Shown: piece by piece, positions 9,835 to 50,096 of the stretch
Position numbering within the stretch: position 1 is the first letter of the stretch
Layout of the letters: each line of letters begins with the position of its first letter
Source of the DNA: Piezodorus guildinii
Lineage: Eukaryota; Arthropoda; Insecta; Hemiptera; Pentatomidae
Direction: 5' to 3'
Assembly (NCBI GenBank): GCA_023052935.1
Contig: CM041294.1
Coordinates: 10,402,414 to 10,466,413, forward strand
DNA: 64,000 nt
Made by a program: the position numbers and the translations under genes
Notes under the pieces: model-generated
Told to the model about the DNA's origin: nothing
The model's database searches: none
What the model saw: only the letters and a program-made list of their open reading frames with translations

Positions 9835-9869
9835 CTGATGACTGACAATGTGGACCTACTAACGTTGAC
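9835..9869 (+). ncRNA. Hammerhead-like core, degenerate
   Basis: It has an exact CTGATGA. The homologous motif at 50060-50096 shows that the GAAAC box has decayed here to CTAAC and that stem II no longer closes. Probably inactive. Confidence 0.3.
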
Positions 9870-9955
9870 AGATAATAAATAGTTAAAAATCTCTAATTGT
9901 TTCTTTTATGGACCGCCACCCGGACTAATTCCTTCCTGTATTTTTAATTATATTA

Positions 9956-11055
9956 TTCATAACTCCCTCTTGAACATCTGAATAACATACCATAATTAAA
10001 ATAAGTTTTATTATAAAACATAATAAACATAGGGTTATATTAGGCATTTCAGTTCATCAATCCAATTTAAATCTAAATATCATAAAGACAATGCAATACA
10101 ATAAGAAAAGCCGATCGAACATACTTAGAAATAAAGTAAGAGGCAAAAGCGCTTCTAATCTACGTCAAGCGTGCACCAAATATTTCTTTTCTCTTTATAA
10201 TATCGGCATTTATTTTGCAATTGTAATATCTATGTACAGGGTATTATTGACTAATTTTACCTGCAACTGAAAAACAAAAATAAATTTATTTTTTTTTATT
10301 TATTACTATACAAAATAGTAAATAGAAAAATGAAATATTACTTACCATTGAAGAAATGACAGGATTCGATTTCACTGAAAAGCTAATATACATTATGTAC
10401 AATTTCAATTATTTTGTACATAATTTAATTTACAAATATTTGTAAAAGCAGTTCTTAATATATATCCATGAATACTTGGGTGTTGGAATGTTTGTAGGTA
10501 GTTTATTGAAATTATTTACAATGACTATCGACTAATATTAAGAAAGAAACTAACCAATAATCCATTAAACAAAGTTTTACACATTCTAAGAAATATATGT
10601 TGAAATTTTGTGAAATAATATGCCATATTTTTTCACACTTAATACTGTTAAAGTGAGATGTGCATGTAGATAACCTTGTGAGATAACTAATATAATAAGT
10701 ATCATTTTGTCTTGATGGTCCATGAATTTTGAAAGTAAAATAATGCCAGATATATACCAGTATTTAGAGACTTAAGGCTGTGTTTTATAGATTAAAGTAA
10801 TAATTTAATTATTATTATTTATGCATTTCTTTTAGTTTTTGCCAGTCTAAAGGCTGTGCAAATGGGTGATTAAACTAAAAAGAATAATGTAGGCTACCCA
10901 CTTTAAAGAGGCTGAATGAGCTCCATGAAGGTTTTTTAAGCTAGAGCACACCTCTCAGTAATAATAATTACAATATAAAACAATAAAAAAATGGAATTTT
11001 AATTCAACTGAATTGAATATTTTTTTATTGTAATTTAAAACTGTATTATACAACA
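9956..11055. other. AT-rich spacer
   Basis: No gene recognised. Short inverted AT-rich segments occur, but I could not assign a repeat family. Confidence 0.4.
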
Positions 11056-11745
11056 GAATAAGTAAATATTCAGGGTGAAGAAAAGTCATGAAAATGTCTT
11101 GAGAAAGTACTACCCAGTGGTAGCACTTCACTAACTATTTTAAGGCAGTAGTTCCCGAGGCCACCTTCTTTTTAATCACCTCGGAGGGTTATCAAGAATA
11201 TCTAAGGAAGATAAATTATGGACAGAAGGTTTGAGTTGGCAGGGAGTTTGGAATGAAAAGAAGTATATCTATCATGTACTAGATCTGCAACAAATGGGAT
11301 GTTGAGATCATTATGGAGGAGTTGACTTGTGACAAAACAAGGGAAATTCAAGATTTTGCAAAGGATTTGATGTGAGTGGCATTAGATGGTTTAGTAGAGC
11401 CCTAAAGCTCGATTCCATTTGTCCAAATAGATTTGATAATTGTGGGGTAAACAAGCTTATTGTAGTAGACTGGAAGTTTTGGCTGTGATTTGGGACTGAA
11501 GGGTTTTGGATGCAGTAGTTGGATCATTATGGACGATTAAGATGATCGTGTCATAAGCATAAGTATTGGGGACAGTATGAGGATGGAGTGGAATGTCAGC
11601 TGTATAATGAGAGTAGAGGATAGGACCTAAGATACTACCTTGAGGCACTCCAGCAGATTGGGAAAATATGGATGAGTAGGAAAAGTTATGGTATACCTTA
11701 AAGGTTCTGCCAGTAACGTAGGAAGAGTTTAATTTAAAATTAGTA
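11056..11745 (-). mobile_element. Jockey-like LINE, reverse transcriptase fragment
   Basis: Minus-strand frames encode the RT palm with GVPQGSILGPILYSHYTADI at about 11590-11650, followed by a degenerate catalytic box in which the expected A-D-D has become A-Y-D. Stops and frame changes show it is dead. The downstream part (11200-11450) continues as degraded RT. Confidence 0.7.
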
Positions 11746-12189
11746 ATATTTCACATATTGTTTTAAAGCATATGTGATCCCCATATTTTATATAAATTCT
11801 CATACTTTTAGAATTTCACCACATCTTCAAGTTGATAACATATTATTTGTTGATTCACTTGCAATATCTTCAACGTTACCATCAATTTCCTCTTCATTTT
11901 GTTAAAGAAGATAATTTTTCATACATGGTTAATAAAAATACCAATTAACGTTGTATTGTATATTAACTATGAAAGTAATATATTATCGACTATCATAAAA
12001 AAAATACAAATAGAATTGAAAAATCCAACTGAAAGTTTCAGCATTCACTTCTTATCCATTATTTTAAACTATTGAGTACAGTACTCGTATTTTTTTTTTT
12101 TTTTTTTTTTTTTTGTATTTTTCCATCAATAATATTTACTAGCCACAATTTATTGTCAGCTTAATTTTTTAGGAAATTGTTTGTTACTA
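11746..12189. other. AT-rich spacer with poly-T
   Basis: Nothing recognisable except a T tract at about 12090-12114. Confidence 0.4.
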
Positions 12190-12410
12190 AGGGGAACCTG
12201 TGGCAGAGTGGCTAGCACGCTAGTCTCTCGTGCTATAGGTTGTGAGTTTGAGACCCGTCAGCCAAATGGTGGCCAATCACAAAATTAGGCGTAAGGAGTG
12301 ATGACCCTACACTACAAAATGTATCAAGATGAATGTAATCTCCCAGGCGATTACACCACAAGGCCCAGGGCCTATCGCGCCCCTGGAACTTTGTTATTAA
12401 GCCCAACATC
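12190..12410 (+). mobile_element. tRNA-headed SINE, second family
   Basis: The head has an A-box-like TGGCAGAGTGGCTAGCACG and a B-box-like GAGTTTGAGACCC at tRNA spacing. A non-tRNA body with TCCCAGGCGATTACACC follows. It is not a functional tRNA, because it lacks an acceptor stem match. Confidence 0.5.
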
Positions 12411-12499
12411 TTTTCAATTACAACTTTTATGGTAAGAGCTGAAAGTTAAGTAATTTTGAACTAAAATGTAAGCAGCATATTTTGCTTTTATTTTTCATT

Positions 12500-12575
12500 T
12501 TGTTTATTCTAGGAGAGCGGCATGGTCTAGTGGGTAGAGCACAAGTGGGTTCAAATCCCGGCTGTGGCGGAATAT
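12500..12575 (+). mobile_element. tRNA-like SINE head
   Basis: GGTCTAGTGGGTAGAGCA and GTGGGTTCAAATCCC are spaced like Pol III A and B boxes. The SINE body of 13250-13520 lies on the other side of the palindromic element at 12619-13242, so that element may have inserted into one SINE, or the two parts may be separate. Confidence 0.45.
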
Positions 12576-12711
12576 TATTTATTATCTTTTCTTTTTTAAT
12601 TTTTGTGAAAGTTTTCTTAATTGGAATATTCAATAAAGCACCCACTACCTTCCATTCATCATCCAATCACTTTATTTCCTAAGTCTTTTAACACCTTTTT
12701 TTTCCATCTTA

Positions 12712-12745
12712 GTCGACGTTTCGGGGTTGTTTCCCCATTTTCAAG
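12712..12745 (-). ncRNA. Hammerhead-like motif, left arm
   Basis: Mirror of the motif at 13116-13149, with the same stem I (AGTC/GACT), stem II (GGGG/CCCC) and GAAACGTC. Confidence 0.5.
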
Positions 12746-13115
12746 ACTGAAACTATTTTTTATACTTACATTATTGAATAAAATTACATTGTTTAAATAT
12801 TTTTCTTTGAAAAATGAAGCTTAGCAATTTGTCAAAACTATTTTAAACTAACTAACTTTAATTACCTTATTCCTTGCTACAACATTTTTCATTCTTCATT
12901 ACATCTTATAGCACACTGCTACTTGTCTATTGAAAGTCTTACTACACTGCTATAAGATGTAATGAAGAATGAAAAATGTTGTAGCAAGGAATAAGGTAAT
13001 TAAAGTTAGTTAGTTTAAAATAGTTTTGACAAATTGCTAAGCTTCATTTTTCAAAGAAAAATATTTAAACAATGTAATTTTATTCAATAATGTAAGTATA
13101 AAAAATAGTTTCAGT

Positions 13116-13149
13116 CTTGAAAATGGGGAAACAACCCCGAAACGTCGAC
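13116..13149 (+). ncRNA. Hammerhead-like motif, right arm
   Basis: In order: stem I arm AGTC, core TTGAAAA (two changes from CTGANGA), stem II TGGGG with CCCC, the box GAAACGTC, and the complementary stem I arm GACT. The helices are intact, but the changed core argues against efficient cleavage. Confidence 0.5.
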
Positions 13150-13249
13150 TAAGATGGAAAAAAAAGGTGTTAAAAGACTTAGGAAATAAAGTAATTGGAT
13201 GATGAATGGAAGGTAGTGGGTGCTTTATTGAATGTTCCAATTATTTATT

Positions 13250-13460
13250 ATGTTATTTCGGCCAGGGGGGCGATCCTGGGGTATGGAGACCCTCCTGAGG
13301 CACACCCAGCCTCAATTAAGTGGGTACCCGAAAATGGGGAAAAGACCTGGTGGCTGAGCGTGATCTCGGCCGAATCACCTAATTGCACTGCCGTTGGACT
13401 AGAAACAGTACAAATCTCTATATGTACTGAGCCCAAAACTCTTCATGGGTTGTAGTGGTA

Positions 13461-13520
<60 letters not shown>
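13250..13520 (+). mobile_element. SINE body ending in long poly-T
   Basis: It contains GGGGTATGGAGACCCTCCTG and TGGTGGCTGAGCGTGATCTC and ends in about 53 T at 13467-13519. A related but rearranged copy is at 57715-57865. Confidence 0.4.
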
Positions 13521-13526
<6 letters not shown>

Positions 13527-14727: not shown

Positions 14728-14770
14728 TGGATAATCAGGAGTCAGTCTTTTTCTAAATATTTTTAATTTT

Positions 14771-14809
14771 GCCAATGTTTCGGCTCAAGCTTGTGAGCCA
14801 TCACCAGGG
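14771..14809 (-). ncRNA. Hammerhead-like motif, left arm
   Basis: Core CTGGTGA, stem II GGCTC/GAGCC, box GAAACATT, stem I TGCC/GGCA. One core base is changed (A6). Confidence 0.5.
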
Positions 14810-14873
14810 CATTACTGAACCATGTCCAAGCATAAATTCAAGTCAGTTTATGCTTGGACATGATTCAGTAATG

Positions 14874-14911
14874 CCCCGATGATGGCTCACAAGCTTGAGC
14901 GAAACGTTGGC
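14874..14911 (+). ncRNA. Hammerhead-like motif, right arm
   Basis: Stem I TGCC, core CCGATGA (one change from CTGATGA), stem II GGCTC/GAGC with loop ACAAGCTT, box GAAACGTT, stem I GGCA. All helices pair. Confidence 0.6.
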
Positions 14912-15019
14912 AAAATTAAAAATATTTAAAAAAAGACTGACTTCTGATTATTCTCCCTATAATAATTTGTACATTCTCAATACGACTTTGATTAAGATTA
15001 TAATATTGTACATTCAGTT

Positions 15020-15960: not shown

Positions 15961-16049
15961 ATTTTATTTTTCTCAACATTATATGTTTTATTTATTAATA
16001 AAATTGGAGGCTGATGTCTACTTCACCACTATTTTGTTGAAAAAAATCG

Positions 16050-16083
16050 CACTACGTTCCGGCTACAATGCCATCTTCAGGTG
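16050..16083 (-). ncRNA. Hammerhead-like motif, left arm
   Basis: Same as the right-arm motif except GGAAC for GAAAC. Stem I GCAC/GTGC and stem II TGGC/GCC are intact. Confidence 0.55.
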
Positions 16084-16156
16084 CAGTGGAACAATTTAGA
16101 TTTAATGTGAGTAGCTGCTTTCAAGTCAAAGCCTCATGTCTAAAATTGTTCCACTG

Positions 16157-16190
16157 CACCTGAAGATGGCATTGTAGCCGAAACGTAGTG
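16157..16190 (+). ncRNA. Hammerhead ribozyme motif, fully consensus
   Basis: In order: stem I arm GCAC, core CTGAAGA (matches CUGANGA), stem II TGGC with loop ATTGTA and GCC, box GAAACGTA, and the complementary stem I arm GTGC. The ACGT after GAA allows only a minimal stem III, as in the hammerheads known from Penelope-like elements, which are thought to act as dimers. Predicted cleavage would follow the A of GTA. Activity is untested. Confidence 0.75.
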
Positions 16191-16246
16191 CGATTTTTTT
16201 CAATAAAATAGTGGTGAAGTAGACATCAGCCTCCAATTTTATTGAT

Positions 16247-18759
16247 AGAAATTTGACCTTCATCTAAAAGAATCTACACCTTATATTTTATTTATTAAAT
16301 ATTTTATAACTGTCAACATCATCCCCCTCAAAGGACTCTTAACGGTAATTTCACATTATTACTCTTCTTTAAGAATTTTATTTCGCTGTGCGTGATTTCT
16401 TATCATATTTTTATTCCCATAATATGATGTAAGAATATAATATATAATAATAATATAAAATCATTTTTAATAATATAAGAATCTGTTTTTCAAGTATTTC
16501 CATAATTACTCCATCAAGTCATTAGTGTATGTGAAAACTGTTACAATCTCGCATTTACCGCATTGGAAGCCTGAAACTGTTGTGATCTCTCATTAAATAC
16601 GTTGGAACTTGGAACAGTCCTTCCCCGCCCCACGAAGCAAAATGAGCTAACTAATTTATAGAAAAGAATCAAATACATTGGTTTAATAATAAATTTTCAG
16701 GCTACTTAGAATAAATAGAGTACCTATAAGCTTTTGGAGTACCTTTTGAAAATCAAAGTCTCAATCGTGCGAGAGGTCTTATCTGATATTTAGTGACTTG
16801 CTGCTTTTTTGGATCATAGGGATCCAAATATTAAAATTGATGGCACTTGAAATTTTGGGTGAAGCCTTTCTCATTCCAATTTCATTTCATTTGTTGAATG
16901 ATTCGTCTGATAGATATTAATTCACATTATAAAGAAACACCAGGATTAAATGATTGGTCTTCAACATATATTTAACTAATTCTAATAATACTCATCAAAT
17001 AATTGAGATTTTATAAAATAACAATAGTTTTATTTTGATGTAATTCATTAAATATAATCAGGTATTTTAGTTCATATAACTAAAATTTAAAAAATATAAC
17101 CGAGCAGTCGATATGGTAACTTCAGTTATCAGAAATTTCATCTTTCATTTTGATTTTGAATTTTTAAAAAAAATTTAAACATAAAAAAACAAAAGAATAT
17201 ATACAATTTACATGCTCATTTCTAAAATAGAAGGCCTGTACATTAGCGTGAGGGCAGATAGTTGATATTCATGTACTGTCGTCATCTTGGACAAAATATT
17301 TATATTTCAAAAAAGTTATAAGAAAATAAAATGTTTCATGAAGCTAATCAGTTGACTGATAATGTAATCACAGAGAGATAAATAAAGCATTATTCAAAAT
17401 GTTTTGCTAATTATTTTAATTGTTTATAACAATGCAGGAAGTTTCTATAAGAACTCAGGTGCCCTAATTAACACTGAATTAATACTACTTTTTGACTGAT
17501 TCCAGATAATTGTCATAAGAAAGTTTTTTTCATATTCATAGATATCAGCACAGCCTAAATCTTAGGCTATCTTCAGGGCTAACAAGTTAACAAAGTCTTT
17601 TTAAATATACTATAATTATGTACAATAATAGAATTGGTTTTTCATAATTTTGCATTGCTTTATTATAAATATTTGTTTTGTTTTTCCATATTATTTGTTT
17701 TATCGTAATTCAATTATTATAATATCGTAATTCTGTTCAATATTCAATAACGACTGTGCAAATATAATGTCTTAGCTGTCTCAGCAATGTCCCTTTTTAA
17801 ATAAAAGCAAAAAGAATTTGCGCTACCCACACCTTGAACACAATAAAGGGCCATCGAATAAAGATAATCCCACTGCCAGTTATTAGGCACTTGTGAGAAC
17901 AGGAATGATTCACTCATTTATTATTTATTTGTAACAACAGTATTTTATCCTATGTATTTTTTTTTTTTTTTTCAGAGAAAAACTATTATCATAGCACATT
18001 TTTTTATGTCTTGTGGAGTGAAAGCAGGTCCTATAATCCTAATTCCTTCGAGAATATAATTTTATATTAAAATTCCTCATGCTTGTCATAGCTTGGGAAG
18101 AGACTTTAGGATTCCGAAATTTTTCATTATTCTAAAGAATTCAGGACAATCTTAAAAATGTATGCCAATTTCATAACTGTGACATAGTTGATAAAGAAGT
18201 GTACATTTTGTATTTTATATATAATTATTTTATTTAAATTTAAAAAAAAAACAACTAATTTGATGATATGAAATAAAAACGTCTTAGACCAATTATTTCA
18301 AATTATGACGAAATAATTACATTGTTAACATGACATACATACAACAAATATTATCAGTTTCATGAAAACTATATCCTACTATAATTTATGTACCTTTGGA
18401 TAATACAGTTATTTGATAGAAGGAAATATTACTTCATGCATGTATTAAATACAAATATCTTAACCAATTCTCAACTGTTTTATTTTGATTACTGTTTACT
18501 ATAGTTTATACCTTACTGCATTTTATAGCTTGTTGTTTATTTTTTTTCTTGTTTCTTTGTTTTGTTTTTAAGCCCTAAAAATGTCCTAGAATTTAAGCTT
18601 AAATTCTGCACACAATAAAATAAGTACCTTTATTTAAGAGTGGTCTCTATAATCACCACAACATCAACCAAATTCTCAAGTAGATGAGTGCTTTAAAAAA
18701 AAGAATTAAGGAGAAATTGAGCATAACGAAACTTCCTAAAATTATATCCCTATCATTAG
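16247..18759. other. Gene-poor AT-rich spacer downstream of the peroxidase
   Basis: No convincing ORF or repeat family. A decayed hammerhead-like remnant occurs near 17548-17575 (CTGAAGA and a good stem II, GAAAC lost). Confidence 0.4.
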
Positions 18760-18764
18760 TCTTT

Positions 18765-23200: not shown

Positions 23201-26200
23201 CTCATCTATCCAAAGAATTTAAGAGAACACTTGTTGAATTTAATTCACCACAGACAAAATTATGACTTTATAACCATAATAAACTAAGTAATCATTTATC
23301 AAACATTAAAGATTTTACCACTCGAAAAACTGAATGTTATTTATAAAATAAATTGTATAGATTGTGATAAGATATACATAGGAGAAACATCTAAAAAGAT
23401 CACAACTAGAGTCAAACAACACAGCAATAATTGTAAAAATATAAACACTACAGCATTTGCACAACACAGTCTTCAGCTTAATCACAATTTTGATTTTGAA
23501 AAACCTACAATATTGGATATAGAAAAACAATCGAATCTATATATAAACAAAAATATAAAAGATACCATAAATTATAAAACAGATTGAAAACACCTCTCAC
23601 AAGCAGTTCTTGCTACAATTGGGAAATTAAAATTTGTAAACCTTACCTTAGTGACCTATATTTAATAATAAATCAGTTTATACTTACTACAGTAAATAGT
23701 ATGACCCTAATTCATCAGGAGCCAAAGAATATGTCAGTTAAATGGGTATTTTTTCCTTAGTGTTAATTTAAAAAACAAACCAATTTTATGACATAAATTT
23801 TTGACAAAATTTTAATCAAAAATGGATAATTTTTTAAATTTTAAATGAATTTCGGGTAAATATAATTTTTTTGTAACATTGTTATGCATATTTTTGGTAA
23901 TGTTTTTAGTTAATATTTAAAAAGTTATTTTATAATGTTAATTGATAATTTTTTGATGTATTTTAGTGAGTCCTGATGATGGGGAAGGCCCTCGAAATGT
24001 TGGCTCGTTTTAAAGTTAATTGTAATAAACTGTATTTGGAAGATTTAGAAACCTACAAATTATTTATTATCATTTTTCATTCTTCCAATTAACCTATTTT
24101 TATTATTAATCAATTTACTAAATTAGAGGAAAAAAAAAATGTAAATAAAATACAAAAATCAGACTTTATTGATAAATATAAACAAATAAATTACCACTTG
24201 ACAACAAAAGAGGGAAAGGTTAATTGATTTAATAACACAGATTGCAATTTGTACAAAATTATGTCATTTCCTTTCATCTTGAAAAATTTGTGTCGACAAG
24301 TGCTCTGTGAAAAGCTATATCACTTTCACATATAATTTCTGATGGTGAAACAACATCAGGAAAGTAATCTTCTGGTTCTGGTACGTTGTAGATGTCCTGG
24401 GTTTCTATTGCAATGTTGTGGAGGACAGCTACAGCTACAATAATATTTAGGGCTTTTTTTGGATCCATTCGAATTCCATTGGCAAGGCAAGGAAATCTTC
24501 TTTCCATAAACCTGAACGCTCTCTCAATGATTGTTTGATTTTTGTGTGACAGTTGATTTTTCTTCAGCAGCATTTGTTGGGTTTAAAATTGGTGTCAGTA
24601 AATATTTTTTGCAGCCATAACTACTATCTCCTAGAAGCCAAAAATCTCCAAATTCTCTTGACTCAAATCTCACTCGTAATGCACTTTAATTGAAAATCCA
24701 ACTGTCATGCACAGAGTCAGGATTTTCAAGTTCCCATCGCACACTACTTGTATATTTAATGAAAACCACCCTTTTCTATTTCAAAATAGTTTTGTATTAG
24801 CTTCACTTAGAGACTGGATTTTAATATGAGTGCAGTCAATCGCACCAATTACTCAAAGAAAACATTTTATCCTGTAGAAATCTGACACTGTTTTGTTTTT
24901 ATCAACTTCTGTTACGGACATTTTAATTAAATCACTTGACTTCCTGGCTATTAATGCTGTTATGCGTGGAATAATTCTATAAACTGTAGATTTATCAATA
25001 TTAATGATGTCGCTAAGAACCTGCTGGTAACTACTAGTAGCATAATACCTCTTGAGGTTAAGTAGAATATGATGCAAAATCATTAATATTAAAAATGTCA
25101 ATCATATTTAGCACTGTTTCTTTTTGAAATCTATACCTTCTTATGAATTCCACATCATCCTAAATTTCAATGGGATTCCTCCTTACTTTGTAAAGCTTGT
25201 TCCTAGGAAGTATATATATCAGTAGCATTATATCTTCATCTGATGTTGAATATTTATCTGAAGAGATTGTGTTCACTTTTCCTCGGTGTATTGGGATAAA
25301 TGTTACGAAAATATTCAGAAAAAAACAAACTAAAACTGACACACAATGTTTCAAAGAGTAACTGGTTTGAAGGTGTTATGGATGTTCCTGTTTGTAGGAT
25401 ATGATTCAAAATCATTAATATTAAAATTGTCAATCATATTTAGCACTGTTTCTTTTCTAAATCTGTATCTTCTTATGAATTCCACATCATCATAAATTTC
25501 AAATGGATTCCTCCTTACTTTATAAAGCTTGTCCCTAGAAAGTACATTTACCAATAGTATTATATCTTTATCTGATGTTGAGTATTCATCTGAAGAGATT
25601 GTGTTCATTTTTCTTCGGTGTATTAGGATAAATATCACGAAAATATTCAGAAAAAAACAAACTGAAACTGACACAGACAATGTTTGAAAGCTAAAGTAAC
25701 AGTAGAAAGGTAACATTGACATCGGATAATCGAGGTAGGAAGGTGAATTAACTTAACACCATCACTTAACATAGAGTTAGGGCTAATTATGATTGGTGCA
25801 ATGGAATTTCTGCTAACCCGTGATTTACTTATCCAGATTAGTAAAGTTAAAGTTAAACACGGTAGGTGCAACCGGGCCTAAATGTCTGGAAACGGTAGAT
25901 GCACTTGCATTTAGTTGTGCTGAGAGTCCTTTAACTGTTTCGTAGGGGTTTCCTTCTACTGTATGTTTGAGGACATCGTTGTCTATTACGGACGGAGGTC
26001 TTCCTCGGGGCAAGTTTTCCAAGTCGGTATCCCCAGCTGAAAACTCAGCAAACCAACGGCAAATGGTCCGTTCATTAACACTCCCTTCCCAAACGCCTTG
26101 CAAATATTTCTAGTGGCCTCAGCTGCTGAATGGCCGAGTTTAAACTCGTACAAAAATATTACTCGAAAATGGCGTGTTTCCATGTTCATATTTGGAGGTA

Positions 26201-29200
26201 TACTAAAAAGTGGATAATTGATTGGGAAGCTAATGTTTATAATACAAAGGTAGAGGATTAGTAACTGTTTACTTTAAATATGTAAACATTCAGAAGAAAA
26301 CAACAGAGACCTGTAAAATCCTTTATGTATTTCAGAAACAATAAAAACGGACATTCCATGTGAAGCAACCTAATACATTGCTGGAGCACTAAAAAAAAAT
26401 AAATACGCAACTGGGTGGGATGTTGCCCAGGCGTTTGATAAAATCTGGCACGAGGGGCTTCTCTTTAAACTCAAGAACTCGCTACTTAACATGTAATATC
26501 TCATTCTTTAATCTTTTCTCTTTAATAAGTTCTCTCTTCGGCAGAACTCTGAAATATCTTTGATCCAACCAGTCTTTGGAGGAGTACTGCAAGGATCGAT
26601 ACTTGCTTCTCTTCTATTCATTGTATACACACATGACATACCAACTAACCCTGCCACACTGACTGCTACTTAGACGTTTGGTACTAAAATTTCAACACCA
26701 AAAAATGATCTTAAACTGGCCTCCCTGTCTGTACTAAATTACTTAATTCTACTACAAAATTGGTAATCTCTTTGTAAAATTTGATTGAATCATGACAAGT
26801 CAAAACATGTAACATTCACACTATGACAAAACTCTTGCCCACCAATTTTATGAGTGATGACCAAATTTCTCAGACCAACTCTGTACATTACCTAGGACTG
26901 ACACTCAACCGAAGGATGACTTGGGACCCACATTACAAAATAAAAAGAAAGACTATCAACCACTGACTGAGAGTACAATACTCACTTCTATCCAAAACAT
27001 CAAAATAAAAAATTAGACAGAAACTTAATACACAAACATACTTACTTAAGCCCAGATGGACTTACACTTCACAGATTTATGGCTAAACAAAAAAAAAAAA
27101 CCAACATACAAAAACTTCCAGACTTCCAGCAACCAATAGTTAAAGAACACATGAGAACTTTCCATTCTTGTTTTCATAGCAAACTACTGGGACGCGACAA
27201 AAGTGGTTATAAGTGGTTCATTTTTAATAGTCAAAAGAAATTATTTTGTTCAAAAAATCAATAGATATTTTTTAAATTTATACAACATTATTCATGATTA
27301 CTTAAACAGCTTAAATGATTCACAAAAATTATTATATTAACAACAGATCATGAAGATCAGTTACTAATGTTATTAAATTATAGTGGAATAAATTGAAATA
27401 ATTACTGGAATATCTGCATGTATCTGTGTACAGTAGTATTGGGCATTGAACCAAACAAGTCCTGGAAATCTTCTCCAGCCTGAAGTCCGCAGAACTTCCT
27501 ATAATACAATGCACAATTGTTAAAATATAAAAAATAATGAGGGTAAATAATAAAAAAACACTTATTATATTTTTACCTAAAAAACATGAATCCTGGTATT
27601 CCAAATTCTCTGCCCCTCTGCATGTTGAAGGCTACAAGATCTAATCCAAAATGATGACCAGGTTTTTTGAGCAGATGATTCGTCACCTATTGGTACCACA
27701 AGGAAGAAGGGATATATGTGTCCATTAAAATTGATAACAAATAAATTAACAATAATTAAAATAAATAAATAAAATACAAAATTTATAATTTAATATGGTC
27801 ATGAACAATAATTTATTTGTTTTTAATACAATACCTCTTGGGTTATTGAGTCGTCCATAGCTTGCGCTACCTGGTTCATCAGACCCATCAGGTACTCATC
27901 CATCACACCAGCTCTGTACAAGTCGTAAGGCCTCCTGATCAGGTCAGATAACCTTTTGGATGCTGAAAATATTTTTGATGCTCAACAGTTATGATTTTAA
28001 ATTAGGAAAGAAAGAAATTATAAGAATTTGGGATTTTATGTTCTGTATAGATTTATAGATGAGGAAGATGGTTGGGGATGCGGTCATTAAACAGAAACAC
28101 ACGTTAAAACTTGGTGATATTTTAATTATGTGCTGACATTTCGGCCTACTTTGTGGGCCTTCATCGGGGTTGACTCTGAGACGGGGTCTAAAGAAGTCGA
28201 CTTCTTATGATTGAAGCAAATAATTTGTTTTACAGCTTTTTTAAATAAATGAAGAAGGAAAATAAATAATTACGCAGATAAAAATCATTACATCTCTTCA
28301 ATAAAATTAAAGATGAAAAATTGGTTCTTCATTCTTCCCAAAATTTTTTTAATTTTTTTTTATGTGAAACGGCCTTAAAGACCAGGCAAATATCACTTCC
28401 TCCAGCTTTACACACACATTCCCCACTCTTCTTCTCTTCCCATCTCTTCTTCATTCTTTCAGACCGTACTCTTCTCCCTTCCTTGCTCCATACACTCTCC
28501 CCTTTCTCACCTCTTTGGCACCCACAAGACCTTTATCTTCCCTAATAATTCCTTTATTCTCCTCCTATTGAGACAATCCTGTGTTGAGATTCCCAACCTC
28601 ACTGTCTCTTTCTTTATCTGCTGAATGTATCCTCCGGCCCTTTATATCTCACATTTTTCAAAGATTTTCTTATTTGTTTGCTCAGGCTAATCCTTACCAT
28701 ATGCCCGTAGAAACGCAGCCTCCTTAACCTATCCATCTAATGCAGGTCATCCATTTCTTTGTACAGCTCCCTGGTAGACCTCAGCCTATATCCCTCTGGT
28801 AACTTTACTGGCTCATAAATCTTCCTCACAATTCCCAAAAGTTGCCTTAAGCTAGGAAACAAGCGGTCTCCATTCTATGCAGAACAACCAGTTTGACAAC
28901 CGTGTTATAGTGTATTATTTTGGCTCTTATTGAAAGACCCTTTTTACACTATAGGTGAAAAGATGAGTCTGATTCAATGAGGTGTAAAAGTATAGAGATT
29001 CTCAAACTTAATTGTTTTACAGATACTTGAAAATGGCCCTAGATGCTGAAACGTTGTAAGGTGCGAAAGTGAAATAAACTAATAAACTTCTTTTGGAAAC
29101 GCCAAATATATATCTTACAGATATTAGTAACCATTAATTGCTGCTAGTTAAATAGACTTCTTTGTAACATTATTGATTGTTAATGGTATAATTAGTTGAC

Positions 29201-32200
29201 CGTTAAGAATTATAGGAAGGAATTAGTCCGGGTTAGTTAAAAACTATTTAATTGTTTCATTTCCTGACCACCACCTAGACTGATTCTTCATATTATTGAT
29301 TGTTTCTAGTATGAATTTTTTAAATTGTATTTATTATCTAGTAATAAATAATTGGTATTAATTTTAATATATTGTAAATAGTCCTGAAGATGGGGAAAAT
29401 CCCTGAAACGTAGTCTCAAAATAATTATTGCAGTATAATAATTTTTTTAAGAAAAATTAAGAACCAATTTTTTGTCATCAATACATCTTTCTTCCAGAAA
29501 AATTAATTACAATAAAATTAAAGTTTTTTTAGCTTACCGATAAATTTATGTGCTTTACTCCATCTCTCGACAGCAGTTGGAAGAAGGGAATGTCCGAACC
29601 TAAAAGCAGCTGAAGCAAATGCATCAATAATATTTGGATTGATAGTTGGGTCGTAACCATCCCAATAACCCTAAAAAATAAAAAAATAAAATTATTTCAA
29701 CTATTTTAAACTTGCAAATGACAATATCAATTTAGTAATATCATACATCTTTCTCAAGTAAGATTCCGAACTTTTCCATAACTTCTTTACCGAGAATAAT
29801 TGGTAAAATTCATTGTAGGTTATGTGTTGTATTTCAGCTATGACTATCCTTCTCGCCTCCTAAGGTAATGACAAAGAAACAAAAATTAAAATTATTGAAT
29901 TACAATAATTTTTATCAAATATAAGACAGTTTTAAACAAAATTAACAAGATTAAATTAATTTGTTTTGTAATTACCTGATAAAGAGTCTCATCGTCCCAG
30001 TGTGGATTCACCTGGGCTAGAGCCCTCGCCAGTCCCGTTGTGTTCGCGAGCCATGATGGTGTGCATGCAAGCCAGAACCAGTTGTTCGTTAACTCTGATT
30101 TCACCTAAAATATAGAATAACATTATAATTTGAGATCTCTCAAGCCAAGACATAAGATATTTCAACAATCTTTGAAAAAATAAATATAAAAAAAACAACT
30201 TTTAGGGAAATTCAGAAGTAAGTATCCCAGGTGGGAATAAGGAAAAATATAATTGTCAACATTTGTTGCTCAATATTCTAGGTCTTCATGAGGGTATCTT
30301 AAGAGATAGAATGGCTATGTGACAATGATAACTAACTATTTCATTGTTTTTCTTAATCCTCCCCCAGATAATCTTCATTTTTAAGGGTATATTTTGGAAA
30401 AAGGGTGTCAGTGATTTCATGAATTACTGTATTTAATCTTAATAACTTGGTTCTATAAAATATGTTTAAATTGCAATAAACTTACTTAATTCCTCAATTT
30501 AGTTATAGTTTCAATTGTGATCTTTACTCGTACGCTATGAATATATTTCAGTTACGGGGCCATATCAGGACTTGAGATAATGCTCTAAGGTTTATACAAA
30601 TCAAAATGATCATAACTAGTGCAAAGGTTTGTTATGTATTTAGGATACTGAGGGTGTAAATTCATCATTGGATAATTATTATATTAAGTAAATAAATATT
30701 AATAAGCTTTGTCGGCAAAAGTTCAAAACCCATTTACCTTCCCCCCTTGGGTCCCCTGCGATAAACCTGGAAAATTTCTAGACCCCAGCTATTAGCCGAA
30801 TAGAATATTAAGGGTGGACTGCCGACTTCGGGCACTTCCCATATCGACCCCGCCTCCCTTTGTCATGACCAGCTATAAGAGATAGGAAATTTCCAAAATA
30901 TAGTATTTTTGAAAAGAAGAGGAAAGAGAGGTGACGAGGGTGAGAATTGAGAAGCAGAAAAGGTCAGTCGTGTTTCATCCACAAAAAGAGGAGAGTCGCT
31001 TCTGAGACACAGAAGAGAAAGAGATCCAAGAAAGGTCCGTCGGGGGTCTGAGAGCCGAGAAGGGATGCCTGAGACAATTTCCAACTCCGCCAGCTTAACT
31101 TCTTTGTAGTATTGTTTGGCAAAGCTACCTGTAAGATGTCCCTCAGTATTCTCATTCATAGTTCCAGGCATTGTGTAAATAGATTGTATATGTATCAGCT
31201 AATTTTAATAATAATGTCATTTATTGAAACCTGTTTAATTTAATATTCCTCTGCATGCCACCTATTAATATTGGTAAACACGATACTTTTGGAAAAGAAC
31301 TCCAACGGTTCCAAAAAGTATAGTCCTCAAATACATTAAATATATTAAGTAATCTAGTTTTAAAAGTTACCACTGAGTTAGAAAAGCTGACGGTCAAAAA
31401 CAGGAGGTTTGCAGCATAGGGCATCCCGTGAAGTTACTGCTTGCAGAAAACACTCCATCAAAGTGGTATCGTTACAAGGGAAATGTAGAACAAAGGTTGG
31501 TTTGTTACATGGAACATGGCTTAAGACCAGTCATCTGCCTTTAATGAAGTTTATATATTCCTGGTCACATGTATATGCTGTAATGTATTGAGGATACTGA
31601 GGGGAGTTCATAATTAAACAATTAATGATAACGAACCTTTGTCGGCAAAACATCAAAAGGTGTTTACCTAGCCCCCTAGATTTCCCATCGGTATGGGCTC
31701 CCCAGCGGTACCAGAAACCTCTGGTAGTTTCCCCCCAGCGGCGGCCAACAAGAATATTAAGATGGGTGGAAAGATAAGAATAATAGCACAAAGGCTATAC
31801 CGCCAACCGGGGCACTTCCCATCTCGGCCCACCCGAGGTGACAAGAATGAGAGAGAAGAACCGAAGAGTTAGTCAAGTTTTGTCCTCAAGAGGAGTGAGC
31901 GGGGTTCCACCTACAAGAAGAGGAGGTGGCCATCGGGGTTCTGAGAGCAGCTGGAGGATGATGACGAGAAAGGGGACCTAAGACTGTTTTCACCTTCGCC
32001 AGCCGGTTAAGGGTTTCAAAGGTATATTGTTATTTGTAATATTGTATGGCAAAGGTAGTAAAATATCCCTCAGTATTCTCAATCAGAGTTCTAGGCAAGG
32101 TGTTGATATAATTTATATGTGTAAATTAATAATTATAGTAATGTATTAATTGAATCTTATTTACTTTAATCTTACCCTGCATGCCACCTATTGGATTGGT

Positions 32201-38200: not shown

Positions 38201-41200
38201 GCTAGTTAAATTAAAATCGTTAGAGCGGTTTTTAGAAAATCGGAAAAAGTTTCAAAATGCGCAGTATCAAGGGTCTCTTTAGGTGTGCCAATTTTAGTGA
38301 AAAGTTGCTGTAACAACTCAGGTAATGCTTCTAAAATATGAAATTATAACATCATTTTAAGCTAGACTTACCATACACACACACACCTTTTTTCAATCCT
38401 GGCAGGTGGCACTAAGATTTTTTAATGTTAGTAAAAAATCCTTAGTTGTGCTGTCCTTTGTAAGGGAAGTAAAAAGATGGTCCTGAGCCTATGTTATAAA
38501 CTCGTTAAAAATCCCTATTCTTATTAAACCTGGATAGGCAAAATTTAGGACTCCCACTGTAGCATCGTCCGATTAGCCACAACAGGTATAAAGTGATGTT
38601 AAAGTAATACACAAACTAACAAATACATTTTAGCAGGACTTGGTAATTTGGGTGCCTTCAACCCTAAAATGTATATTTTTGGTGAAAACTAAAATAGAAA
38701 ATCTTCTTTATCACAATTAGGAAAAGTAATATTTCATATATAGGTAGGTAGGTGAAAGTAATATCTATTACAGCTCATTTATCAATACTTACATTTCTTG
38801 TTTTGAAAAAAAAAAAAGAAGTGTTTAATCATTTTTAGATTCCGGAGATTGAAGCAAGAATGTGGTTTATTGAAGACATTTATTAATACTAACAATTAAT
38901 AGTAGTAAAAAGTTTCTTTACCGAGTCGACAGTTGGGCCTTACTGCAGGAAACGATCTAACAAAGTCTTGACACTTGACGCCGTGTTTAGCATAAAAGTA
39001 ATCATCGTCCGGAATGGTGATCTCCATACAATATGGATGTTTCAGGTGCGGGGGCCTGTTACAGCATTCCTCTGGCTCGTTCTTTGTAAAGCGATCTGAA
39101 AACAAGCATCAAATAATTTTATTTTTCAATATTTACTGCAGTATATTAAATGAAACACTATACATAATGGTATACCAAAAGAAGACTAGTCTCCTAATTA
39201 ACCACTTAGGATATAGAATTTAATAAATAAAAGAAAAAATAAATATGTAAACTTCCTCAATTTGAAAAATAAATAAATGTATCTTGCAGTAATATGTGTT
39301 TATTTTACGGACATCTTGTACTATTTTTTCAAATTTCCAATATTTTTTATAAGATAATTTCTGTTTGCTTTACATTTGAAAAAGAATTGTTTACTAAATC
39401 TGGTAATATATTCTTTAATAAGAGGGACTCTTAATTCTGAATGCATGGTTTACATTTTAGAATTGTATGGATAATTTTCATTGATTATTTAACATTTATT
39501 TTGTAGCTCTTACAATTTGTTATAGTTTTATTTACACATATAGCTGAATATTGGGCATGTAAAATTAAGGATCGACCTTAGGCAAGCTTTATTTAACAAT
39601 AATTTATTTGATACATTTAATTTAGATAGTCTGTTAAAATATGGATAAATATAGAAGAGAGAGCTCTGCTGGCTTTGTTACAAACATAATTTGTCTGCTC
39701 ACAAGGAGAAGATCCAAAATGTCTCACCGATATTGATTAAATTTTTTTAGGTGAAATCAGACATTAAACCATTAGCATCTGAAAAATATTAGGGGCTGAC
39801 ACTCCCCAAGGTTCTAGTGAAGGCAGACAAATAATTTTGATGCTATTTCAAAGCGGATTAATGGAAAAAAATAAGCTATAAAAATATTTAAGTTTTATGC
39901 TTGGTAATAATTCTAAAAATATAAATAATCTCATTGAAACAGTACTTTTTTTACCCAACAGAAATTAATTTTATTTTATAATTTACAACGTTTTGGTCTC
40001 TAGGGCCATCCTCAAGTATCTATCATGCGTATTTATTCTACTTATTATGTTTCACCGCTTCATCAGCAGCATCTTCTGTTTTCACTCATCTTCAAGAAGG
40101 TCTTCCGCGCACATTGTCCACATATGACGGCCAATGAGATGTAGAAGAGTGGAAACAGATGACACTGCAGATGAAGCAGTGAAACATTACATGTGGAATA
40201 ATTATGCATGATAGTCACTTGAATATGGCCCTAGTGGCTGCAATGTTGTAAAATATGAAATAAAATTAATTTCATTGGATCTTGTAATTGTAAAAGCAAA
40301 ACAAGTATTAGGATTATGATGAACAAAAACTATTAATTATGTTTTACCTAGAGGTGTTCCTGTCAGGGTGAAATCATGGTCCATGAACTGCCCCCAGGCT
40401 ACTACCATGACAGTGCCGGCGTGGTCGTGGAACCCTTCGTCAGGGTGGATTGTCCTTGAGACTATCCTCGGGAGGGGAAGTGGGGTTCCTAATATACTTT
40501 CTCTAGGAGCGCTCATACCGTCGGAGAACTGTGGAGCCATCAGTCTGAAATGAGATTTAAAATTATTAATAAGAGTCATTATGTTTCATCACTGTCATAA
40601 TAGTATCACAACTATAATACGCTGCTTCCAAAACTCAGGCCATTATGTTAAGGGTATCATTGGCTGGGTTCACTACTGTAATTTACATTGTATCTCAGCA
40701 TCAAGAGATATATAACATGTTATATATTAAGGACACTGAGATGTGTAGAATCATCATTTGATAATTATGATATTAATGAAATAAATGTTAATAAGCCTTT
40801 GTCGGCAAAATATCTAAAGGTGTTTACCCAAAACCATGGGGCGCCCCAGCAGCAGCCAACAAGAGTACTAGGCCTGTCCTAGAAATAGGCATACTTATGA
40901 TAAAGGTCTACAAAGGCTGGACTGCCAACCGGGGCACTTCCCATATCAACCCCCCCAATGTGACGAGGATGAGGAAGAGGATTTGAAGGGGTCCTTCTTA
41001 TTCCAGCCACAAGAGTTGAAGTTCCATCTACAAGAAGATGAGAGGTCCGTCGGGGTCAGCAGATAGGAGCTGGAGAATGAAGCCTAGAAGAGATGTCTAA
41101 GCCTGATTCCACCTTCGCCAGCCGACTAAGTGTTTAAAGGTATTTCTTAGGTTGTAACATTGTATTGCAAGGTTAACTGTAATGTCCCTCAGTATTCTCA

Positions 41201-44225: not shown

Positions 44226-44290
44226 AACGTAACAAACATCGAACATATTTAAATCTACGATTCGACACAGTTAGGTATAGTAAGGTAACT

Positions 44291-46171: not shown

Positions 46172-46206
<35 letters not shown>

Positions 46207-46338
46207 CACAGACCTTTTTGCGGGACTTGGTTATTTGGACTCAGGGGACCCTAAAACGTGTATTTCCGTTGAAAACTGGAATTCGAAAATTTTCACGATC
46301 GCAATACTTCCCCTTACTATATATAGTAAGTGAAAGTA
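45431..46338 (+). repeat. Rep-A copy 6
   Basis: Starts CTGGAGCGGGCAACACACG and ends ATATATAGTAAGTGAAAGTA, with (CA)n at 46174-46203. This is the clearest complete copy without a large insertion. Confidence 0.7.
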
Positions 46339-46507
46339 AAAATCCTTGCTTATGCCATCCTTCGGAGGGACGTAAAAAGGTGGTCCTGAGCCTGTGAGAT
46401 GTCAGGTACTCGTTAAAGACTATTAAACATAGATAGGCAAAATTTATAACTCCCACTGTAGTATCGTCTGATTAGCCACAGTAGCATAAAAGTAACATTA
46501 AACGAAT
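46336..46507 (+). mobile_element. tRNA-derived SINE, 5'-truncated
   Basis: Directly follows the Rep-A end; body blocks TTATGCCATCCTTCGGAGG to GTATCGTCTGATTAGCCACA. Confidence 0.65.
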
Positions 46508-46509
46508 GA

Positions 46510-46915
46510 ACAATCAACAGTGAAGGGTTGTTATAAAAAGTAAGATAGGTCGCGAATTGAGCAATGAAGTTACGACAGGCGCAGAGGTCTGCTAAAGGGA
46601 CCTGTCATTAGGTCGCTGTCTGTTAAATATTCAAATTAGATTTGAATATAATGGAAGGGCTGCTATCTCCATAGCAACTCTTGCGATACCTCTCAGCTTC
46701 TCTTACGTAACAATAGGTCCTTGATGAACGGCTTAGCAAAAATACAATTTGAAATTAGTTTTAGTCGAGCGGCAGAGTTATTGTAAACTCCAGCGCAATG
46801 ATGACAGCGGGGCATTTATTTCAACTGTGCAGCTCAAGTAATGAATGGAAAACTCCGATCATATATATAGTGGGCAAAAGCAGATGTCGACTAACTAAAT
46901 GATCATGAATGAAAA
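46510..46915. other. Low-copy segment, unassigned
   Basis: Moderate GC and no similarity to other parts of the window. No ORF of note. It may hold regulatory or untranslated sequence of the peroxidase, but nothing shows this. Confidence 0.3.
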
Positions 46916-46917
46916 AA

Positions 46918-47195
46918 ATCTCGTGCGGGCAACACACAGGTTTAACTTGCCTCAGATGTTAAAATCAAATTAACAACTTTATGTGCTTTCCAATGGTATG
47001 TTATACACCTACCTTACTGTTTATAAATTCAAAAACACAATGTTAAAGAAATGCTTTGGTTAATGTTTTCGAATCTAAAAAAATTAATAGTACTTTAGAG
47101 GAAGAAAATTTTAAAAATTGGCATCTGAACCCTGTCAGACTATTTCAATCAGAATATAACCTACATCATAACAAAGCCCATTATATTTTATTTAT
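46918..47195 (+). repeat. Rep-A copy 7, 3'-truncated
   Basis: Head CTCGTGCGGGCAACACACAG and the first 250 bases; cut off by the LINE fragment. Confidence 0.55.
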
Positions 47196-47229
47196 AAATT
47201 ATCTATTAATAATATTCCGCTTTTCTAAG

Positions 47230-47790
47230 TTGAACAGATGCGCTATCCAGGACCCCTATTTGACAAACGTCTAACATGGAACCCGCAAACTAGACTGAAA
47301 CGGCAAGAAACCGCACGCCGCTTTCGGTTACTTCAACGCTTACTGGACAGACGCTCTAACCTTCCACATTAATATAAAAGACTTATCTACATGACCATCA
47401 TAAGGGCCTATCTGGACATTCTGGTTTGGGGCTCTACTAAACCATCAAATTCTTCCCGTCTTCAATCCTTACAATCCAAAATCCTTCGAATAATCCTCAA
47501 TGCTTCATACTTTGTCACGAATCAACTCATTCATAAAGACCTTAATTTTCCATATCTAGCAAATTCGGCCCGAACTAGGTATGAATCCTTCTAAGAAAAA
47601 CTCCACTCCCACTCTGACCCATCAGTTTCAATCCTTGCCTCCTCTTCCATTCCTGATAATCCTCTGACGCGTCTGAAAACAATATGGCCCCTAGATCTTC
47701 TATTTTAGATTACCAACTGGAGTGCTGCCAATGAGCAATTTCTCTTCACGTTTTTAACCAACACAGTTGCAAATATCAAATAATACAAAT
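47230..47790 (+). mobile_element. Jockey-like LINE 3' end
   Basis: Encodes RAYLDILVWGSTKPSNSSRL, LQSLQSKILRIILNASY and IHKDLNFPYL, ending with IPDNPLTRLKTIWPLDLL-like sequence and a short UTR. Frame breaks; dead. Confidence 0.7.
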
Positions 47791-47819
47791 AAATAAATAA
47801 TTAAAATTCATCTATTTAA

Positions 47820-48150
47820 GCTCAAGAGTATTACAAAGACTCATTCAAGACATGCCTATGCGACTATAAACCGTCCCAACACCAATTAGCTCCCTATTTC
47901 CCTCACTCCCTCGGAGACTGCAAAACAATAAAGGAGACGAAGCCCTGCTCCTCCTCGGTCACAGGTGGCTGAGCAGGCTAAGTCTTCTGCACTGTTTGAG
48001 CAAGGATTGCCAAGCGGAGAGGATTGCTCCAAGCCGATCAGTCACGGGGTCGTCACCGACCGCAGCCCAAATACAACATTCTTCATCTTGGCTAGCAAAA
48101 GTTAGCCAAAGGCTTTGGAAAAAAAAATAAAATAAGCTAAAACAAATATT
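47820..48150 (-). other. Possible exon, unrecognised
   Basis: On the minus strand a pyrimidine tract ending TTTTGCTAG precedes an open stretch reading QDEECCIWAAVGDDPVTDR and ending in a stop at 47959. GC content is above the local background. No family match, and a link to the peroxidase cannot be shown. Confidence 0.25.
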
Positions 48151-48156
48151 ATTTAT

Positions 48157-48300
48157 ATGAGGAAGATGGTTGGGGGTGCGGTCATAAATTAGAAACACAC
48201 ATTTAAAACAAGTGCTATTTTAATGTTTCGTTTCGGCCTACAATGTGGGGCTTCATCAGGGTTGACTCTGAGACTGTGTCTAAAGAAGTCTTCTTAATAC
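48157..48300 (-). mobile_element. Hammerhead-bearing short retroelement, copy 2
   Basis: Full-length relative of 28055-28205 with the same conserved end (GAGGAAGATGGTTGGGGG). Confidence 0.6.
48229..48261 (-). ncRNA. Hammerhead-like motif
   Basis: Core CTGATGA (exact), stem II GCC/GGC, box GAAACGAA. The last bases and stem I deviate. Confidence 0.5.
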
Positions 48301-49633
48301 CGGCATTTAAGCCCTGTCAGGATATTTCAATCAGAATAAAACCTACATCATATTAAAGCCCATCAAATTTTACATCGGCATATAGAGTTTAATCCAAATC
48401 GTTAGAGCCGTTTTTTAGAAAATCGTAAAAAGGTGCAAAATGCATGGTATAAAGTTGATCTTCCGGTCAGCTGATTTTGTTAAAAAAGTTTTAGCAACAT
48501 CTCGGGCGTATAGTTGTGTTAAATATCAAATTTCAGTTTCATAGGACTTTTCGTTTTCGCGAGGGAGTCACCACACACACACAGACCTTTTTTCGGGACT
48601 TGTTTATTTGGACTTAGGGGACCCTAAAACATGTATTTCCATTGAAAACTAGAATTCAAAAATTTTCGCGATCGCAATACTTTGCCTTACTATATATTTC
48701 ATATATATTGGGTTGATGCAAAATTAATGCAGGTTTCCTCTATTGCAATATCTTAATTCCAATTGTGTAAACAAAGCTAATCCTAACATTGATCATTATT
48801 ATACCAAAACAAACCTTATCTAATACCCTCTCTTTCACCATGAATTTGTTTAGTAAAATCGTTTTGTTCAGTGTGTTCAAAGGTCTTGAATCGAAAATGT
48901 CAAAGTGCGATTTTCGTCAAATTTATTTTTACGAATTTAAATTAGGGCGCAGCGCTGCGCAAACGGCTCGTAATATTAATGAAGTGTGGGGTCAGGGGGC
49001 TATTCATGAGTGCACGGTGCAGCGTTGGTTCCAGAAGTTTCGCAGAGGAGATTTCGACCTCGAAGACAAGGAAGGTCGGGGCCGTCATCTTGCTCTGGAC
49101 AACGACCAGCTGAGGTCAAAAGTGGCAGAGGACCCAACCAAAATCACACGAGAAATGGCGGCGGAACTCGGTGTGAACTAATCCACAGTTGTACGCCACT
49201 TGGAAGCAATTGGTAAGGTAAAAAAGTTGGCCAAGTGGGTGCCAGTAGTAACGCCAGACCACACGTTGCACAACCAACGCTTCGACGACTGCACGAGTTG
49301 GGCTACGAAGTTCTCCAACATCCGCCTTATTCACCTGACCTCTCTCCTACAGACTTCCACTTTTTCAGGCATCTGGACAACTTTTTGAGGGAGAAAAATT
49401 TTCAAAACCAGGACGACATTGAAAATTCTTTTCGTGATTTCATTGAGTCCAGGGATTCGGATTTTTTTTCTGGTGGAATAAGAAAGCTTGTTGAACGTTG
49501 GCAAAAGTGCATTGATTCAGATGGAAATTATTTTGATTAAATATATATGGTTAAAGTAAAGATATGGCGTATTTACAATACCTACTAAAAACCTGCATTA
49601 ATTTTGCATCAACCCAATAGGTAAGTGAAAGTA
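48295..49633 (+). repeat. Rep-A copy 8, split by a mariner
   Basis: 5'-truncated Rep-A. Its tail TATA-GGTAAGTGAAAGTA is cut at a TA dinucleotide by the mariner at 48714-49617. Confidence 0.65.
48714..49617 (+). mobile_element. Mariner (Hsmar1/cecropia-like), core-deleted
   Basis: TIRs TTGGGTTGATGCAAAATTAA / TTAATTTTGCATCAACCCAA are flanked by TA. The transposase N-terminus reads IYFYEFKLGRSAAQTARNIN and the C-terminus LGYEVLQHPPYSPDLSPTDF to a normal stop at 49540. One internal stop follows AAELGVN, and the central catalytic part is deleted between KLAKWVP and the ARPHVAQPTL segment. Confidence 0.85.
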
Positions 49634-50059
49634 AAAAGAAATTTTATTCCCGTTTACGTTATTATTATCAAAACAATTATAGTGAAACCACAAAAAAATA
49701 TTAGGCGGAGTGGTACCAAAAGTGTTAGTCTCACGGATGTTGTGTTCTATTTTTGAGGTACATAGGTCACCCTGATCTATGCTATATATAACTCATCATT
49801 AACTTAATAACAATAATCAATATTACAATATCCTCATTAAGAGTACACAGTATCTACTTTGCCACGCGTATCATTCCTAGTTTTTTTTTTATTGTTTCCT
49901 GGCTATAATGTTTACATTTTTTCTCCCATCTCTCTCTTTCTGTTCCGAATAATCTTTTACATTATTTAGTCCGATAACTTTATCGAATATTTTATTGTTT
50001 CACCCATTCAGATCAATTCTTTTCATATACTTGAAAAATCTAGTACCCTCAGCACACGC

Positions 50060-50096
50060 CCTAATGATGACCCACAATGGGGGTCGAAACGTTGGC
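50060..50096 (+). ncRNA. Hammerhead-like motif
   Basis: Stem I GCC/GGC, core CTAATGA (G5 changed), stem II GACCC/GGGTC, box GAAACGTT. Confidence 0.5.

Follow-up and report, generated by a model that had tools for sequence, protein, structure and literature searches.

A stretch of 64,000 nt from Piezodorus guildinii (contig CM041294.1, positions 10,402,414 to 10,466,413 of the forward strand; hereafter the window), which lies in a genome assembly (G000) of 1,203,173,040 bases (~1.2 Gb), carries about 15 short motifs that resemble hammerhead ribozymes, and the question raised by this locus is to what kind of element such motifs belong. We conclude, with a probability of about 0.92, that the 15 sites are hammerhead motifs of the pseudo-long terminal repeats (pLTRs) of Penelope-like elements (PLEs), many of which remain as short head-to-head pLTR pairs, and that several families and ages are represented. 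Judged from its sequence, the motif is a minimal type I hammerhead, without helix III and with a palindromic ACGU box instead. This kind is already known in animals. As described in a review (PMC7761336, which cites Cervera and de la Pena 2014 and Lunse et al. 2017 as primary papers), the minimal type I hammerheads of PLEs have the same core, likewise lack helix III, and are located in pLTRs in thousands of dispersed copies. We found no difference in kind from these; what is notable here is the copy number, which is in the tens of thousands, together with the presence of many families in one genome and of a U3-A8 core pair in whole families.

We built a covariance model, R1, from 16 motif copies of the same genome, none of which came from the window. 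In a search of the window, R1 recovered 13 of the 15 sites at E-values, rough according to the search tool itself, of 1.5e-10 to 0.0044; the site at 48229 reached only E=0.18, and there was no match at 9835 up to E=1. Beyond the listed sites just two matches appeared up to the same limit (E 0.53 and 0.63). A strict descriptor, which allowed at most 2 mismatches in core and box and required at least 3 bp in each of stems I and II, found 8 sites in the window, as compared with 0.175 per shuffle in 40 dinucleotide shuffles. An earlier reading of this stretch, made from the letters without database searches (the sequence-only reading), had counted about 15 hammerhead-like motifs; the observation is confirmed, and the motif at 9835, which that reading called decayed, is too decayed for R1. 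The sites and the features associated with them, assigned to families F1 to F9, are as follows (strand where assigned; E-values from R1).

9303..9943: old head-to-head pair of F7, related to F9; arms 9303-9396 and 9845-9943; motif at 9835 too decayed for R1
12574..12585: target-site duplication ATTATTTATTAT, left copy, F1; exact 12-bp repeat at 13240-13251
12586..12617, minus: one-sided 32-bp tail of F1, outside the palindrome and within the duplication; resembles the PLE tail as described in PMC3846280 and PMC11167929
12618..13243: head-to-head pLTR pair of F1; arms 12618-12913 and 12948-13243 (296 nt), 99% complementary
12706..12752, minus: hammerhead motif of F1, TTGAAAA (U3/A8), stem I AGTC/GACT; E=1.5e-10
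13109..13155, plus: second hammerhead motif of F1, TTGAAAA (U3/A8); E=1.5e-10; stems I and II in the single-strand fold
13240..13251: target-site duplication, right copy, F1
14731..14951: older head-to-head pair of F2
14765..14815, minus: decayed hammerhead motif of F2, CTGGTGA, box GAAACAT; E=7.2e-07
14868..14917, plus: decayed hammerhead motif of F2, CCGATGA, stem II one letter shorter than in other copies; E=2e-05
15986..15998: target-site duplication TTTTATTTATTAA, left copy, F3; 13-bp AT-rich repeat at 16286-16298
15993..16247: head-to-head pair of F3; arms 15993-16097 and 16143-16247
16044..16088, minus: hammerhead motif of F3, one box change (GGAACGT); E=8.8e-07
16152..16196, plus: fully canonical hammerhead motif of F3, stem I GCAC/GTGC; E=8.9e-09; exact pattern match
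16248..16285, plus: one-sided 38-bp tail of F3
16286..16298: target-site duplication, right copy, F3
23965..24010, plus: hammerhead motif of F4, core intact, box GAAATGT, stem I GAGTC/GGCTC; E=1.2e-06
28126..28175, minus: decayed hammerhead-derived motif of F5; E=9.2e-05
29019..29064, plus: hammerhead motif of F6, TTGAAAA (U3/A8); E=1.1e-05; similar U3/A8 copy at L115:1551
29376..29421, plus: hammerhead motif of F8, canonical core and box, one stem I mismatch; E=5.6e-09
39961..40273: old head-to-head pair of F6, 75% identity
39978..40023, minus: decayed motif of F6, TTGAGGA, box AAAACGT; E=1.4e-05
40211..40256, plus: decayed motif of F6, TTGAATA, box GCAATGT; E=0.0044
48218..48267, minus: decayed motif of F5, box GAAACGA; E=0.18; the stretch 48151-48296 matches 28051-28207
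50053..50102, plus: motif of F9, G5 changed to A; stem II and loop as in the tandem-PLE motif of locus L074; E=1.9e-06

As can be seen from these coordinates, nine of the 15 sites sit in head-to-head inverted pairs, in groups F1, F2, F3, F6 and F7, an arrangement that the sequence-only reading did not report. The F1 and F3 insertions have target duplications of 12-13 bp and a one-sided tail of 32-38 bp; because the F3 repeat is of low complexity, its duplication is weaker than that of F1. At loci L080, L081, L083 and L093 we observed 13-bp duplications with one-sided extensions of 26-32 bp, and head-to-head copies of F4 with canonical core and box were present at L086. The Penelope elements of Adineta vaga, as far as they are described in PMC3846280, have in common with these copies the inverted pLTRs, the frequent head-to-head order and the palindromes; their tail, of 31 bp, is optional. 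In contrast, the A. vaga duplications are 8-10 bp and those found here 12-13 bp, and several copies here consist of the pLTR pair alone.

The pairing of the stems was examined by letters and by permutation. All five stem I pairs named in the sequence-only reading (GCAC/GTGC, TGCC/GGCA, GAGTC/GGCTC, AGTC/GACT and TAC/GTA) are present, such that the arms differ between families and pair within each. When arms were exchanged between families among 13 family representatives (9 from outside the window and 4 from inside), stem I, which had 43 of 52 possible pairs, dropped to a mean of 28.7 (1 of 20,000 permutations was equally high), and stem II dropped from 47 of 52 pairs to 34.5 (0 of 20,000). In the alignment of 16 copies, 90.2% of 143 cells were paired; 40 cells were changed on both sides, as compared with 14.3 in shuffles (0 of 500), and the covariation score was 0.706, as compared with 0.256 after shuffling (0 of 500); sliding gave no more than 0.192. 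Because the families are related, these figures are not strict probabilities. The swap test and the covariation score bear out the earlier claim of compensatory change. In the copies listed, the ACGU box runs directly into the stem I arm (GAA-ACGU-H), with no helix III between, and single-strand folding formed stems I and II in the F1 and F3 motifs. An ATG opens stem II at 12 of the 15 sites, the position of the start codon in the Anolis PLE of PMC11167929; it is missing at 9835, 28133 and 48229.

The exact canonical motif is present in 26,207 copies in the whole genome, and a reversed-pattern control gave 0. Coding frames accompany such motifs in two families. At L074, three motifs of the family of 50060 lie in direct repeat ~3.98 kb apart. 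One of the units contains an RVT_1 frame (5.6e-9) and the following one a GIY-YIG frame (1.3e-4, which is at the cut-off); these are separate, broken frames. Of 7,990 candidates scored with the L074 reverse transcriptase (RT) piece, 463 were homologues at E<=0.001, and where organisms are named among the 120 homologues listed, they are insects; a search of PDB with the L074 frame gave 0 matches. At L118 and L119, open frames of 835 and 744 aa are located between inverted pLTRs that carry the U3/A8 motif, and 201 nt of the L119 arms, both motifs included, are 100% complementary. Pfam gave 0 matches at E<=0.01 for the L118 frame. The L118 protein aligned with P0001, which has an RVT_1 label, at 32% identity over 677 aa. 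Frames of the PLE kind were thus found, outside the window, for the 50060 family and, by similarity to P0001, for one U3/A8 family. F1-F8 were not linked to any PLE frame, and no full-length partner of F1 was identified.

A further arrangement was observed at L076 (G000:C1:1193801-1198800), where monomers of 296 bp are arranged in tandem, seven on one strand and, facing them, four on the opposite strand. Each monomer has an intact canonical motif, the same as that of L074, and the 300-nt windows compared were 100% identical to their reference in 6 of 7 and in 4 of 4 cases. This is a very young retrozyme-like array, and its likeness is to the metazoan non-LTR retrozymes, which PMC7229834 describes as tandem arrays of short monomers (RNAs of 170-400 nt) that carry a type I hammerhead. 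No direct tandem repeats of a few hundred bp, the retrozyme arrangement, were seen in the window. According to PMC7761336, the retrozymes of most invertebrates self-cleave as monomers with a stable helix III, in contrast to the motifs here, which have no helix III. Since the same genome holds coding members, the window's RT-less copies look like the part of the class that is non-autonomous or left over. The covariance model, the pair counts and the RT/GIY-YIG elements that bear such motifs together sustain the sequence-only reading in its claim of PLE-type hammerheads with compensatory stems. Its further claim, that so many copies without a neighbouring RT are unusual, did not hold up: PMC7761336 describes many metazoan genomes with thousands of minimal type I hammerheads that are mostly scattered through non-coding DNA, and we counted 26,207 canonical copies here.

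We considered whether the palindromes are foldback elements or DNA transposons resembling miniature inverted-repeat transposable elements (MITEs), in whose arms a hammerhead likeness would be incidental. Such elements would be equally compatible with the inverted arms, which measure 44-296 nt and in several cases enclose a short loop. Yet the motif, with its covarying stems, recurs across families that are otherwise different, the one-sided tail lies outside the palindrome and nevertheless within the duplication, and direct tandem copies exist. Moreover, elements with PLE frames bear such motifs, and for the families linked to those frames the DNA-transposon explanation is largely refuted. We rejected it on these grounds and regard it as very unlikely.

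The identification of the sites as PLE pLTR hammerheads must itself be weighed against several of our observations, which are gathered in this and the following two paragraphs. The Rfam hammerhead families gave no match in the window at either gathering or permissive thresholds. However, the covariance search with Rfam models that the sequence-only reading had proposed proved to be powerless here: the same models also miss intact genome copies, including perfect tandem copies and an element with an open frame, and the Rfam negative is therefore uninformative. R1, a new model, detects such motifs where Rfam fails. Of the five pair-count measures obtained from the 16-copy alignment, two failed to exceed shuffles: pairs changed on both sides numbered 8, as compared with 6.4 (reached by 74 of 500 shuffles), and further pair types 17, as compared with 15.5 (reached by 156 of 500). 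We found no convincing target duplication for F2, F6 or F7 in the window, and 12 genome loci that were checked, the repeats being assessed without a shuffle control, showed a 13-bp duplication in 4, repeats of only 7-8 bp in 4, and none in 4 (some with short flanks). Also, no PLE RT was found in the window, where 8 of the 22 frames of at least 110 aa were scanned. An RT fragment (RVT_1 5.7e-14) is present at 53290-53928; presumably it is of long interspersed element (LINE) type rather than PLE type.

The state of core and box also counts in part against the identification. After all 15 sites were read on both strands and recounted, only 16157 and 29383 had a perfect canonical core and box, and at 29383 there is one stem I mismatch despite this. 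At 12712, 13116 and 29026 the core reads TTGAAAA (U3/A8) and the box is perfect. Each of the ten other sites is substituted at one or more further positions of core or box, as exemplified by GAAACGA at 48229, CTAATGA at 50060 and GCAATGT at 40218; at 23968 the sole change is one letter of the ACGT palindrome. The CTGANGA-like core and GAAACGTH box that the sequence-only reading saw at its sites hold in canonical form for 2 of 15 and in U3/A8 form for 3 of 15, and fail to hold at the ten that are otherwise substituted. Because of these ten, several window copies are relics; intact versions of F2, F3, F4 and F9 are present elsewhere in the genome. The statement that H17 is T, A or C wherever the box reads GTH proved correct for all seven sites with the box GAAACGT, and genome-wide G17 was found in just 185 copies (0.7%), as compared with 26,207 that have A, C or T. 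A G17 motif is expected to be inactive.

With regard to mechanism, in a transcript of tandem copies two motifs would pair through the palindromic ACGU to form a dimeric hammerhead, which would cut after H17 and release unit-length RNA for the RT/endonuclease of the element; RT-less pairs may have been inserted in trans by autonomous copies. In our co-folding of six families, the best dimer was the expected double hammerhead in none (0 of 6): five families gave extended duplexes or partly so, and F1 paired through another palindrome. Since co-folding did not predict the dimer, this step rests on the literature, in which dimeric cleavage of PLE motifs is reported (PMC7761336). A related element is PAc, a Poseidon PLE of Anolis carolinensis, which, as described in PMC11167929, has its hammerhead at the junction of pLTR and open reading frame, its start codon at stem II and a C3/G8 pair, and which shares with the elements here the tail and the combination of RT and GIY-YIG. 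The same source reports, also to the disadvantage of the mechanism, that in vitro the ribozyme of PAc, the one PLE tested in this way, needed protein and that loss of the ribozyme did not stop insertion. A read-through transcript of a head-to-head pair should fold as a long hairpin, the 2 motifs being complementary, and for this reason the window ribozymes are probably silent, idle relics. The review already cited calls the role of PLE hammerheads in vivo a mystery (PMC7761336).

We used whole-genome counts, each with its control, to compare the states of core positions 3 and 8. C3/G8 was found in 26,207 copies (control 0) and U3/A8 in 6,188 (control 4), as compared with 899 (1) for U3/G8, 741 (0) for C3/A8 and 4 (1) for G3/C8. 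The 2 positions covary with an odds ratio of 243, and about 25 U3/A8 doubles were expected from the single rates. These counts supersede an earlier sample, drawn from C1 (20 x 10 kb) and the window, in which C-G was seen 5 times, U-A 4 times and U-G once. Under selection for cleavage one would predict both the covariation of the core and the rarity of G17. Among the listed places, U3/A8 copies span several types of stem II and loop, namely GGCAAAGAGCC, GGGGAAACAACCCC, GGGGAAAAGGCCCC and GGGGAAAGAACCCC, one of which flanks the long frames of both L118 and L119. Of 9,747 first-look candidates for the L118 protein, 54 were scored and yielded 57 matches, six of which spanned residues 14-835 or more without a stop. 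An identical U3/A8 motif was present in 10 of 10 sampled flanks of the L118 family, all taken from stop-free matches; among copies with 69-89% identity, 3 of the 4 flanks had this motif too. At L148 (G000:C7:115451500-115452500), an intact U3/A8 motif lies beside a 69%-identical protein match with 29 stops; this motif could belong to a younger insertion.

We tentatively propose, at somewhat less than even odds, that C3-G8 has been replaced by U3-A8 in entire recently mobile PLE lineages, with half-way states, G3-C8 and G17 staying rare. Natural covariation from C3-G8 to U3-A8, identical to that seen here, was reported by Perreault et al. 2011 for hammerheads active in vitro (PMC3088659), and the U3-A8 pair in PLEs is therefore a large natural case and not new chemistry; as far as that paper presents them, its examples are several in number, whereas the copies here run into the thousands, and one family of them has PLE frames. 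In the Anolis element, changing position 3 or 8 alone is reported to abolish cleavage, and an engineered C3G/G8C swap to restore it in part (PMC11167929); PAc has C3-G8, in contrast to the natural U3-A8 of a PLE family with open frames here. Some points limit the proposal: the U3/A8 figures count copies and not events, a single founder could explain many of the copies, and in F6 position 8 carries other letters in two old copies (39985 and 40218). If the proposal is true and the switch occurred more than once, these elements would provide genome-scale natural evidence of selection on PLE hammerhead catalysis during retrotransposition. The 26,207 canonical and 6,188 U3-A8 motifs of this one genome form a natural mutational series. 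It might be argued that U3/A8 copies arose by mere mutational decay of C3/G8 copies, inasmuch as both changes are transitions and single mutants occur scattered. The observed 6,188 doubles in place of ~25, and their spread over several stem II/loop types, one of them with long open frames and identical motifs in all 10 sampled flanks, make such decay highly improbable.

We would likewise give little credence to domestication, that is, to retention of the motif at individual loci for a host function. Some amniote hammerheads do seem, according to PMC7229834, to have roles in mRNA, and the L148 motif is intact even though the protein match of that copy is so degraded (69% identity, 29 stops). 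However, 10 of the 15 window copies are changed, and changed differently from site to site. Under the PLE reading, the core would be maintained by selection on mobile lineages and not by a job at this locus.

That the hairpins are microRNA precursors we rejected as hardly credible at all, for although the mir-624, mir-1 and mir-4659 models score on F3, F1 and F2, respectively, and further mir models on L081 and L086, every score is below the curated gathering score, and a given palindrome is matched by differing models, in some cases on both strands, which could happen with any long hairpin. The foldbacks at 12880-12981, 14805-14879 and 16067-16173, and those at L081 and L086, could be falsely annotated as microRNAs.

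We also looked in viral contigs for relatives of the motif outside this genome. The general pattern matched 73 stretches, of which 7 of the 73 listed rows pair at least 3 bp in stem I; the U3/A8 pattern gave 0 matches in these contigs, and none of the pattern matches was accepted as a PLE. R1, applied to 11 of the 73 loci, matched 9 times up to E=1, with a best value of 4.7e-05, and because the loci had been chosen for the core pattern this run is no negative control. Contigs L030, L035, L040, L046, L059 and others have CTGATGA, a stem II and GAAACGTC without a stem I in type I order, and possibly represent other hammerhead types.

Several other features of the window were observed. The segment 42199-42591 contains the start of a match to animal haem peroxidase (PF03098, E 1.4e-05, 24.3 bits as compared with a cut-off of 25); by eye, further peroxidase exons may lie within 27500-40500 on the minus strand, in which case the F5, F6 and F8 copies there would be intronic. 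Three frames, at 34110-34517, 48771-49181 and 61881-62435, have the helix-turn-helix of Mos1 transposase (PF17906) and are probably decayed mariner-like copies. Two tRNA-like stretches, at 12160-12400 and 12515-12575, resemble short interspersed elements by eye, and the second of these adjoins the F1 insertion.

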